This document shows positions 8,552 to 12,114 of a DNA stretch of 64,000 bases, one piece after another; the first letter of the stretch is position 1, and each line of letters opens with the position of its first letter. The stretch is taken from positions 62,001 through 126,000 of the forward strand of contig NZ_RDSK01000012.1 in NCBI RefSeq assembly GCF_003722075.1. The letters are read 5' to 3'. The notes beneath the pieces were generated by a model that saw only the letters and a program-made list of their open reading frames with translations, made no database searches and was not told the origin of the DNA. Source of the stretch: Methanohalophilus sp. RSK (GTDB taxonomy: Archaea > Halobacteriota > Methanosarcinia > Methanosarcinales > Methanosarcinaceae). A program made the position numbers and the translations under genes.

Positions 8552-9793
8552 ATGGACAAATACAGGCTAATCTGCCCAAAATGCGGCAAAACTTATGGCA
8601 AATATGACATGCTATGCCCCCTTGATGGCTCCTTTTTAAGAACTGAATATTCAAAAAGGCAGTTTGAGCCCTGTGACCTTCCCGGAATATGGAAATTCTA
8701 CAATTGGTTGCCTGTGGAAGGCATAATCAAAAAAGGCAGCAGCAAAACGATAACCTACAAAAGTGAGGGGTTTGCCGACAAACTCGGCCTTGAGAACCTT
8801 TTCATAAGCTTTAACGGTTACTGGCCTGAAAAAGAAGCCTATATGAGAACCTGCAGTTTCAAAGACCTGGAAGCATATCCCACTATGCAGAGGGTAACCG
8901 AGCAGAAAAAAGAAAGGATACTGGTAGTTGCCTCCGCTGGCAACACTGCCCGGGCCTTTGCACATGTATCCTCTATAACCGGTCTTCCTTTGCTTCTGGT
9001 AGTTCCTGAAAATGCTATTGAAAAACTCTGGATACCCGCAGGATCGACATCATCAATCTGTGTTGCAGCGGTAAAAGGGGATTACTATGCCGCTATCTCC
9101 ATTGCCGCACAAATAACCGATAGGGAAAAATTCATGCCGGAAGGAGGTGCCAAGAATGTGGGACGCAGGGATGGGATGGGAACGGTAATGCTGGATGCAA
9201 CACTTACCATGAAGCGTCTGCCGGACCACTATTTCCAGGCGGTGGGTAGTGGAACCGGCGGGATTGCTGCCTGGGAAGCAGCTATGCGCCTGAAAATGGA
9301 CGGCAGATATGGAGATGAATTACCACAGTTACATCTTGCCCAGAACCTCCCCTGTGCTCCATTGATCCACTTACATAAGGGAGTTCCTGTGGACCCGAAA
9401 TGTCCTGAAGGAATGTATGACCCCGTGTTGTTTAACCGCAAACCTCCGTATGCAGTTGGTGGGGGAGTAAGAGATGCCCTTGAAACTACAGAAGGGGACC
9501 TGTACGGGATTACCAATAAAGAGGCAGAGGAAGCCAGGTTGCTATTTGAAGAACTTGAAGGCATTGATATAATGAATTCCGCAGCTGTGGCCACAGCCGC
9601 CCTGATTAAAGCTGTCAGGGATACAAAGGTGTCAAAATCAGATCTCATAATGCTCAATATCACCGGCGGAGGAGTAAAAAAGGCTTTAAAGGAACTTGCC
9701 ACCATCAGACTTGAACCTGATCTCGTAGTATCCCCTGAAGACAGTGACGCGCCTGCTAAGATCATACAAAGAACTGAAGATAAATTCGAATAA
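8552..9793 (+). CDS. Cysteate synthase (coenzyme M biosynthesis)
   Basis: 413-residue PLP enzyme of the threonine-synthase fold. In Methanosarcinales and Methanomicrobiales, cysteate synthase converts phosphoserine and sulfite to L-cysteate, the entry into their coenzyme M route. An N-terminal zinc-type motif CPKCGKTYGKYDMLCP is followed by the PLP-lysine segment TCSFKDLEA and the phosphate/substrate loop SAGNTARAF; a glycine-rich LNITGGGVKKAL is near the end. The neighbours confirm the role: comD starts 14 bases downstream and comE overlaps comD. A threonine synthase is the alternative, but the context and the N-terminus favour cysteate synthase. Confidence 0.88.
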   Translation: MDKYRLICPKCGKTYGKYDMLCPLDGSFLRTEYSKRQFEPCDLPGIWKFYNWLPVEGIIKKGSSKTITYKSEGFADKLGLENLFISFNGYWPEKEAYMRTCSFKDLEAYPTMQRVTEQKKERILVVASAGNTARAFAHVSSITGLPLLLVVPENAIEKLWIPAGSTSSICVAAVKGDYYAAISIAAQITDREKFMPEGGAKNVGRRDGMGTVMLDATLTMKRLPDHYFQAVGSGTGGIAAWEAAMRLKMDGRYGDELPQLHLAQNLPCAPLIHLHKGVPVDPKCPEGMYDPVLFNRKPPYAVGGGVRDALETTEGDLYGITNKEAEEARLLFEELEGIDIMNSAAVATAALIKAVRDTKVSKSDLIMLNITGGGVKKALKELATIRLEPDLVVSPEDSDAPAKIIQRTEDKFE

Positions 9794-9807
9794 AGGAATG
9801 AGGCTAC

Positions 9808-10305
9808 ATGGACCCATCCCAGGAAGTGTTCAAGGCTATAAAGGAATCAGGCATTGATTTTATTGTCAGTGTACCGTGTGCCAATCTCCAGAAACTCATT
9901 CCCGTGGTCGACAGTGACCCGGAAATCATCCACGTTCCCGCCACCAGGGAGGAGGAAGGTATAGGAATCTGCGCCGGGGCCTATATGGGAGGGAAAAGAC
10001 CGGCCATAATGATGCAAAACTCCGGTATGGGTAATTCCATCAATGCCCTGGCATCTCTCAATCGTCTATACAACATTCCATTACTGATAATTATAAGCCA
10101 CAGGGGAGTTGAAGGAGAGCCCATCTGCGCCCAGGTACCAATGGGTGAAAAAACACCTCTCTTGCTCGAAGTACTGGATATCCCTGCATACAAACCAAAT
10201 CTTGCACAGGCCAGGGAAACCATCGAGAAAGCCACTCAAAGAGCCTTTGAAGAAGGAAAGCAAGCAGCTATCCTGTTGAGCATAGGTTTCTGGAGGGAAT
10301 CATGA
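9808..10305 (+). CDS. comD: Sulfopyruvate decarboxylase alpha subunit
   Basis: 165 residues, the standard ComD length. It is the pyrimidine-binding half of the two-subunit thiamine-diphosphate enzyme that decarboxylates sulfopyruvate to sulfoacetaldehyde in coenzyme M synthesis. Visible elements are FIVSVPCANLQKL, the glutamate region ATREEEGIGICAGAYMGGK that activates thiamine diphosphate, and the MMQNSGMGNSINALASL motif. The stop overlaps the ATG of comE (ATGA), so the two subunits are made together. Confidence 0.93.
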   Translation: MDPSQEVFKAIKESGIDFIVSVPCANLQKLIPVVDSDPEIIHVPATREEEGIGICAGAYMGGKRPAIMMQNSGMGNSINALASLNRLYNIPLLIIISHRGVEGEPICAQVPMGEKTPLLLEVLDIPAYKPNLAQARETIEKATQRAFEEGKQAAILLSIGFWRES

Positions 10306-10871
10306 TACGCTACGGTGCACTTGAGATTCTTGCTGAAAAAGAGGGAGATAAAGATACTCTGATCATTGCAAACATCGGATTCCCCTCAAAAGAATTATAC
10401 AAAATATGTGACAGAAAGGCAAATTTCTACATGCTTGGTTCAATGGGCCTTTCTTCTTCCATCGGCCTCGGGCTTGCCCTGGCAAGACCGGACAGGAAAG
10501 TTATCGCAATCGACGGGGATGGTTCGGTCCTGATGAATATGGGAAGCCTGGCAACAATAGCCAACCAGCATCCGGATAATTATCTCCTTGTAATCATCGA
10601 TAACGGTGCATATGGTTCAACGGGCAATCAAATAACCGCAACCGCAGGATTGACCGACCTCAAAGAAGTTGCTTAGGGAGCCGGTGTACAAAATGTTGCC
10701 ATGGTGTCCGATGAGTCAGACCTTAAAAAGAAACTGGATACAATGGATAACGGTGTCCTGGTAGTAAAGACCGAACCCGGCAACAAGAAAGTGCCTGTAA
10801 TAAAACTATGTCCTGCAGATATAATTAAGCGGTTTATGGAGATATCCTCTCCACCATCCCATTCAGGATGA
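10302..10871 (+). CDS. comE: Sulfopyruvate decarboxylase beta subunit with in-frame TAG (possible pyrrolysine)
   Basis: ComE is the diphosphate-binding half of sulfopyruvate decarboxylase. The frame shows the thiamine-diphosphate motif IAIDGDGSVLMNMGS through LLVIIDNGAYG. A TAG stands at codon 125 (10674-10676), just after GLTDLKEVA. Beyond it the same frame runs on for 64 codons to TGA at 10869-10871 (GAGVQNVAMVSDESDLKKKL, then VLVVKTEPGNKKVPVIKL), which matches the expected C-terminal part of ComE. Read through, the protein has 189 residues, normal for the family; stopped, it has 124. With no TAG stops among the neighbours, insertion of pyrrolysine or suppression is the better reading; a nonsense mutation or base error is the alternative. 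The 3' end overlaps the converging gene by 38 bases. Confidence 0.82.
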
Positions 10872-12114
10872 AATTTCCATTCTTTATACTGTCCCTTAAT
10901 TTTTCAGCCATTATGAGTGCACGTTTACGATCGGACTGGCGCACCACGATTGGCACATCCATATTTTTCCCTTCATAATCGAATTTAAGACTGCCCAGGT
11001 CTGCCTTGAAAACATCGCTACATAGAGTGGAGCAGAGACCGCAGTTAAAGCAAGTATGCCTGTTCAGTACTACTTTGTCCCCGTTGAAATAGATTGATTC
11101 CATAGGACATTTTTCCATGGGTTCACAGACATCACATCCACGACATTTGCCGGGATTGAAAGCTACCTCAAGATCTACATCTTTCCAGGCATCTGCATAA
11201 CTTGTCATTGCAACCTTTACCCTGCGATCAGCATCCATCACAGGAAGCGGGATTTCACTATCTGTTTGCCTTATAGCATCGTATACTGAATCATCAACCA
11301 CAGGCACTGCAACTGCCCAGGAAACAATGCATTCCGGCCCTGCAGACGTAGCAAAACCCCCCATATAATCAGCCACCATGGAATGCATATCCGCAGTTGC
11401 TATCAAATTGGGTTTTTCCGGACTGCTGCGCGTCCCTGAACCCAGTATGAACCCTTCAGCACCATTGAAAAGAATGCGACTTCCCACACCGATACCATGG
11501 AGCTGCGGGTCATTCTTCACAGGATTTATTTGCCCACATCCCGACAGGGTGGCTTCAGTGGCATCAGGTGCAAAGGTGGTTGCATGAAAAATCGTGGAAA
11601 CAGGAGACGAGGAGAAGTTCACAAAAGCACTGTAATTCTTAAATGCATGACGTGTTGCAAACAACTGGGCATAAGGCATATCCTCAAGGGACACTGTATC
11701 TGAATATTTCTTCCCTTCATCGGTAACTACATCGACATCCACAGGATTGCCTTCCACAATATCCCGGAAAAGGTGGCCTCCTCCGTAATTTTCCCGGTCA
11801 TCGCTGTGTGCAGTACCAAAAACCATCAAATCCAGTATACCCAACCTTTCATTGGGACAGGGGCCCACATGGGCATCCACACCATTCATTGTTACTGAAG
11901 ATGCACGGGTGAATTTTTCAGGAGTCTCCACCGGGAATGAGAGAACTGCATAAGTTCCACTCATAATTGCCCTGGTCGCAGCAGTCACCACATCAACATC
12001 CTCAAAACCGACACTATCTCCTGAATCGATCATATCACAAAGTTCCTGAGAGGTGAGAACTGTTGCATCTTTACGGTTAATTTTCTCAAGAATGTGCCCT
12101 ACTTCACGGTCCAT
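10834..12114 (-). CDS. DUF39/COG1900 iron-sulfur protein (methanogenesis marker 16 type)
   Basis: 426 residues: a long N-terminal DUF39 (COG1900) domain, then two ferredoxin-type 4Fe-4S motifs, CRGCDVCEPMEKCP and CFNCGLCSTLC, near residues 335-375. This arrangement is the methanogenesis-marker-16 metalloprotein. Relatives of COG1900 act in sulfur insertion to make homocysteine from aspartate semialdehyde. By analogy, and because it sits against comDE, it may insert sulfur into sulfoacetaldehyde to finish coenzyme M; this is inference. I chose ATG 12114 because GAGG lies six bases upstream; a longer in-frame start at 12147 would overlap the preceding gene. Confidence 0.82.
   Translation of the reverse strand: MDREVGHILEKINRKDATVLTSQELCDMIDSGDSVGFEDVDVVTAATRAIMSGTYAVLSFPVETPEKFTRASSVTMNGVDAHVGPCPNERLGILDLMVFGTAHSDDRENYGGGHLFRDIVEGNPVDVDVVTDEGKKYSDTVSLEDMPYAQLFATRHAFKNYSAFVNFSSSPVSTIFHATTFAPDATEATLSGCGQINPVKNDPQLHGIGVGSRILFNGAEGFILGSGTRSSPEKPNLIATADMHSMVADYMGGFATSAGPECIVSWAVAVPVVDDSVYDAIRQTDSEIPLPVMDADRRVKVAMTSYADAWKDVDLEVAFNPGKCRGCDVCEPMEKCPMESIYFNGDKVVLNRHTCFNCGLCSTLCSDVFKADLGSLKFDYEGKNMDVPIVVRQSDRKRALIMAEKLRDSIKNGNFILNGMVERISP

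Follow-up and report, generated by a model that had tools for sequence, protein, structure and literature searches.

Coenzyme M synthesis locus and the comE frame

The window analysed here is a stretch of 64,000 nucleotides from Methanohalophilus sp. RSK. Judged by its gene content, the region at positions 8552-12114 is a coenzyme M synthesis locus, because the genes for cysteate synthase, ComD, ComE and the methanogenesis marker 16 protein stand together there. The features of the locus are as follows.

8552-9793, plus strand: cysteate synthase, intact, first gene of the coenzyme M synthesis cluster (TIGR03844, 557.7 bits)
9808-10305, plus strand: comD, sulfopyruvate decarboxylase alpha subunit, intact (TIGR03845, 220 bits; cut-off 147.95)
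10302-10871, plus strand: comE, sulfopyruvate decarboxylase beta subunit (TIGR03846), 189 residues by read-through
10674-10676, plus strand: in-frame TAG, codon 125 of comE, proposed pyrrolysine codon
10677-10868, plus strand: the 64 comE codons 3' of the TAG, C-terminal part of the TPP-binding domain fold according to the alignment and an AlphaFold2 model
10834-12114 (start provisional), minus strand: methanogenesis marker 16 metalloprotein (TIGR03287, 518.9 bits)

The comE start codon overlaps the comD stop codon (ATGA), and the marker 16 gene is convergent to comE, so that the 3' ends of both frames overlap. In M. acetivorans, the methanogenesis marker 16 protein, ComF, is reported to be the main enzyme that synthesises coenzyme M (PMC12068725). 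When the TAG was translated as a residue, the comE frame was found to consist of 124 codons, the TAG, 64 further codons and a TGA, without a frameshift. The preliminary description had reported the TAG and the 64 codons that continue the frame, and its coordinates and lengths were correct. It had also held that a protein of 189 residues suits the family and one of 124 does not, which agrees with the profile scores: the read-through protein exceeded the curated TIGR03846 cut-off of 221.5 bits with a score of 248.2 over residues 3-180, whereas the 124-residue product ending at the TAG reached only 190.5 bits. The expected C-terminal part does follow the TAG, as that description had claimed; the alignment with the sister species G002 was ungapped in this part with 60 of 63 residues identical, and R177 and F178 were invariant in 27 aligned homologues. 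With the whole-protein score above the cut-off and with comD and coenzyme M genes adjoining, the protein was assigned to the ComE family, and its sulfopyruvate decarboxylase activity together with ComD is predicted. Its nearest named matches were the proteins of M. euhalobius and M. profundi.

An AlphaFold2 model of ComE was built from the 27 aligned homologues and showed a mean pLDDT of 89. In this model, residue 125 lies at the end of a helix (residues 120-126), and the part after the TAG comprises two strands (132-135 and 151-156) and two helices (138-147 and 171-182), all of which belong to the same domain and would be missing from a 124-residue product. The conserved GDG and NGAYGSTG stretches, which by position form the TPP-binding motif, are located 5' of the TAG. 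Among transposon mutants of M. maripaludis, comE was hit at codons 112 and 131, and coenzyme M synthesis fell to less than 3% in the strain disrupted at codon 112 (PMC3787637). Deletion of comDE turns M. acetivorans into an auxotroph for coenzyme M (PMC12068725). Strain RSK, which originates from the brine-seawater interface of the Kebrit Deep in the Red Sea and grows on mono-, di- and trimethylamine and methanol, is described in its genome report as requiring no growth factors (PMC6491703). Since disruption of comE nearly abolishes coenzyme M synthesis and loss of comDE causes auxotrophy elsewhere, RSK, if it needs no growth factors as reported, should need full-length ComE.

Codon 125 among the relatives of RSK

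We searched 60 genomes (RSK and 59 relatives) with TIGR03846 and obtained a match above the cut-off in 46 of them. The comE of RSK was the only one with a stop codon inside the match, a single TAG; the 45 other genomes with a clear comE had none, and the TAG is thus private to RSK. The idea that the TAG is conserved in related species was accordingly rejected, and conservation lends the proposal no support. What the alignment did reveal is a variable site. Codon 125 was TTG in three and TTA in two of the five closest congeners, all encoding Leu, while the residue in other genera was mostly Lys, Arg, Asn, Gln or Ser, with Lys in related genera; across the homologues, the site was occupied by L, K, R, N, Q and S. 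The comparison of ComE among relatives therefore failed to show a conserved TAG and at the same time pointed to a permissive position, held by Leu in the sisters. The simplest explanation is a single-base change from TTG to TAG in the lineage of RSK.

Besides the TAG, comE of RSK carried three private silent substitutions, one of which falls 3' of the TAG, and no private amino-acid-changing substitution. These numbers are compatible with selection on the gene and too few to prove it; the branch leading to RSK is short, and a very recent loss of function would also agree with three silent changes. The part after the TAG evolves faster than the rest of comE in all species, with 82 silent and 121 changing codon differences when the sister pairs were summed.

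Decoding machinery and TAG codons across the genome

The RSK assembly comprises 1,969,036 bases in 18 contigs and is 99.6% complete with 0.21% contamination. To read UAG as pyrrolysine, the strain would have to carry pylT, pylS and pylBCD, and all of these genes are present. The pylT gene, found by ARAGORN with a CUA anticodon, adjoins pylS, and the genes for PylS (692 bits), PylB (515 bits), PylC (453 bits) and PylD (351 bits), all above their curated cut-offs, lie in one run that is followed by mtbA. The mttB gene, mtbB and two copies of mtmB, named by sequence, each carry a TAG and served as positive controls. The genome encodes a single release factor, aRF1. It contains no second comE at this completeness; the other matches were distant TPP enzymes. 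The pylB gene of RSK itself ends in TAG, and the next in-frame stop codon is 39 codons further on (C1:303902-304963, minus strand; L075:3902-4963); pylB also ends in TAG in M. mazei, M. acetivorans and M. burtonii (PMC2933860). In archaea that bear pyl genes, UAG has been described as both a sense and a stop codon, and an amber reporter in M. acetivorans showed about 20-30% read-through (PMC2933860; PMC9499178). A downstream signal is reported not to be required for pyrrolysine insertion (PMC9499178). At the comE UAG, no stimulatory RNA structure was found (folding z = -0.70), and the sequence 3' of it matched neither PYLIS (RF01982) nor any other Rfam family.

To place the comE codon in a wider context, stop codons were surveyed in about 1.60 Mb of RSK (81% of the genome) and 1.2 Mb of G002, with an incomplete gene list. 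Of the open reading frames (ORFs) with 90 or more residues, TAG ended 48 of 1562 in RSK (3.1%) and 15 of 1129 in G002; these counts include interrupted genes, and true TAG stops are thus fewer. We compared 709 G002-to-RSK ORF pairs whose substitutions followed a coding-like pattern; the comE TAG was the one stop codon that interrupted a conserved frame of RSK, more than chance would explain, and neither TAA nor TGA occurred inside such a frame. When one filter was applied to all stop codons, nine TAG-ended ORFs passed, of which six were judged to be read through, and 84 TAA- or TGA-ended ORFs passed, of which one was judged to be interrupted. Expressed per ORF, interruptions were found in 6/48 TAG-ended versus 1/1514 TAA- or TGA-ended frames (Fisher p 4e-9), or 4/48 versus 1/1514 (p 4e-6) if two surface proteins are left out; because the calls were made by eye on the listed sequences, both p-values serve as a rough guide only. 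The excess of TAG fits pyrrolysine read-through of a near-neutral change and does not fit gene decay, because decay should also yield TAA and TGA interruptions, which were nearly absent.

Other measures of read-through were tried and set aside. Codon-usage scores of the extensions were too weak to serve as a detector, and homology and domain span were used instead. The raw length of the extension after TAG, TAA and TGA gave a weak signal that was inflated by in-frame operon neighbours. Counting any stop codon inside tblastn matches was noisy owing to upstream extensions and antisense ORFs, and a filter on codon position cleaned the count. The single TAA- or TGA-interrupted gene of the control set encodes a TnpB-like transposase with an in-frame TAA (C13:146107-147033, plus strand). 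A remnant of a sodium:solute symporter gene (C14:177207-177710, minus strand), from which the middle appears to be missing and which has a TAG near its end, looks decayed.

The following RSK genes other than comE and the methylamine methyltransferase genes contain an in-frame TAG.

C15:115580-116599, minus strand: taw2 (Taw2/Trm5-like tRNA enzyme), private TAG in the domain; GAG in the five sisters
C1:71888-72940, minus strand: Trm-G10-like tRNA methyltransferase (TIGR01177), private TAG in the domain
C1:27863-29842, plus strand: copper P-ATPase, private TAG inside the domain
C13:85029-85715, plus strand: FGE-sulfatase domain protein, TAG in the domain
C13:86760-88412, minus strand: PAS/GAF sensor kinase, TAG in the domain
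C1:110210-111349, minus strand: group 1 glycosyltransferase, TAG in the domain
C15:68759-70396 (L131:8759-10396), plus strand: PAS sensor kinase, TAG inside the PAS domain

Where congeners possess taw2, the Trm-G10-like gene or the copper P-ATPase gene, their copies lacked the TAG. The Trm-G10-like gene of one congener, G005, contains one in-frame TGA (C2:123605-124642, minus strand). The TAG of the PAS sensor kinase on C15 also occurs in G002, where the gene is 92% identical, and is the only non-methylamine TAG that we saw in two species; searches of the other congeners returned no copy of the kinase gene. In the reverse direction, an acetyltransferase-like gene of G002 (C1:905015-905560, minus strand) has a TAG at a glycine of the motif SRGGGFG, for which RSK has GGG. 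It is possibly a private TAG of the sister species and is the best case in that direction. Since the comE TAG is private, its site is variable and there are at least four private TAG codons in otherwise intact RSK genes, pyrrolysine at codon 125 is probably tolerated rather than functional.

Proposed pyrrolysine in ComE and alternative explanations

With the pylTSBCD genes present, homology in the same frame on both sides of the TAG and no other copy of comE, the gene has the features of one that encodes a pyrrolysine protein, and its preliminary designation as a candidate of this kind is supported, incorporation of the residue being predicted from these genomic data. We consider it very probable that comE of RSK is a working gene in which TAG is read as pyrrolysine, tolerated at a permissive site. 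According to this model, a single base, most simply the middle one of TTG, would have changed recently, so that TAG took the place of Leu codon 125 where the helix ends. At the comE UAG, the tRNA with the CUA anticodon would compete with aRF1, the only release factor, and deliver pyrrolysine often enough for ComE of the full 189 residues to pair with ComD in the synthesis of coenzyme M. Pyrrolysine would have no special job in ComE, and the same kind of change may have taken place in several other RSK genes.

We also considered that comE is a fresh pseudogene in which the TAG stops translation, with coenzyme M obtained from outside or by a bypass. The presence of the TAG in one genome only, by a change too recent to show decay, would agree with this, but TAG is nearly the sole type of interruption, the neighbouring cysteate synthase and comD genes are intact, and RSK is described as independent of growth factors (PMC6491703), while deletion of comDE makes a relative dependent on coenzyme M (PMC12068725); we therefore regard a pseudogene as very unlikely. 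The chance that the TAG is a sequencing or assembly error and that the true codon is TTG, as in sisters, appears slimmer still. TAG and TTG differ by one base and the TAG is known from the assembly, but errors would also have produced TAA and TGA, neither of which turned up in the 709 conserved pairs, TAG occurs in several genes independently, and the assembly, with the completeness and contamination given above, was built from MiSeq reads of an isolate according to its report (PMC6491703).

A split gene, in which the 124-residue fragment associates with a second fragment translated from the ATG at codon 134 (position 10701), is scarcely credible in our judgement. Although this ATG lies in frame nine codons past the TAG and the TPP-motif residues are all encoded upstream, the insertion in the M. 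maripaludis gene nearly abolished synthesis (PMC3787637). By inspection, the GGAG located about 20 bases before the ATG is too far away for a normal ribosome site; in the AlphaFold2 model, the break would part helix 120-126 and the next strand from the rest, and the excess of TAG across the genome would be left unexplained. Suppressor tRNAs are known in other organisms, and the tRNA set of RSK was scanned in part, so that UAG might be read by a near-cognate or mutant tRNA inserting a standard amino acid. We rate this as the least probable of the alternatives, as RSK has all parts of a dedicated tRNA-Pyl(CUA) system and, in the same genome, TAG-containing genes for methylamine methyltransferases.

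When comE was compared with known systems, it was found to resemble MtmB, MtbB and MttB, whose genes occur in the same genome, in having an in-frame TAG read, by our model, as pyrrolysine. In those enzymes, pyrrolysine takes part in catalysis and different species share the TAG, whereas the comE TAG is private and at a variable position, and a conserved active-site TAG, as expected for catalytic pyrrolysine, was not found. Reportedly, all TAG codons are read as pyrrolysine in some archaea (2025); such a code would cover any pyl-bearing archaeon with TAG as an ordinary sense codon. This kind of event is already known, and comE is a new case of it, notable for affecting coenzyme M synthesis in a cultured strain. 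A close parallel is the gene for Thg1, the tRNA-His guanylyltransferase, of Methanosarcina acetivorans, whose TAG has been attributed to neutral evolution (Heinemann et al. 2009, as cited in PMC2933860 and PMC3639795). Both are non-methylamine genes of Methanosarcinaceae with an in-frame TAG attributable to a neutral single mutation; unlike Thg1, however, ComE is a core enzyme of cofactor synthesis, and the RSK case is known from sequence alone. For Ca. Methanomethylophilus alvus, Borrel et al. (2014, PMC4153887) predicted 16 extra pyrrolysine proteins, half of them with TAG-free homologues in relatives, and proposed that such a TAG, once in frame, is stably kept and that in major genes it could render the pyl cassette essential. 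RSK shares with that organism the TAG codons in conserved genes with TAG-free homologues and the low use of TAG as a stop codon, but it belongs to a different order of methanogens and the genes are different; comE was not met among the predicted proteins in the parts of that paper drawn on here (PMC4153887).

If comE is read through, then coenzyme M synthesis, and therefore all methanogenesis of RSK, would now depend on the pyl cassette, on methanol as on methylamines. We lean towards the broader view that UAG is an ordinary sense codon genome-wide in RSK and that drift in comE, taw2, the Trm-G10-like gene and the copper ATPase gene has made the pyl cassette needed on every substrate. Loss of pyl in M. 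acetivorans costs methylamine use only (PMC2933860); loss of pylT in RSK would cost coenzyme M synthesis on any substrate, and added coenzyme M would rescue the strain. Routine gene annotation would report truncated products for comE and the other TAG genes, and the predicted enzymes of pyl-bearing archaea would need to be re-read in this light. If correct, RSK represents an addiction to the 22nd amino acid that has arisen by neutral change within one species, and how a rare amino acid becomes indispensable would be directly testable in a cultured strain from whose close sister species these TAG codons are absent.
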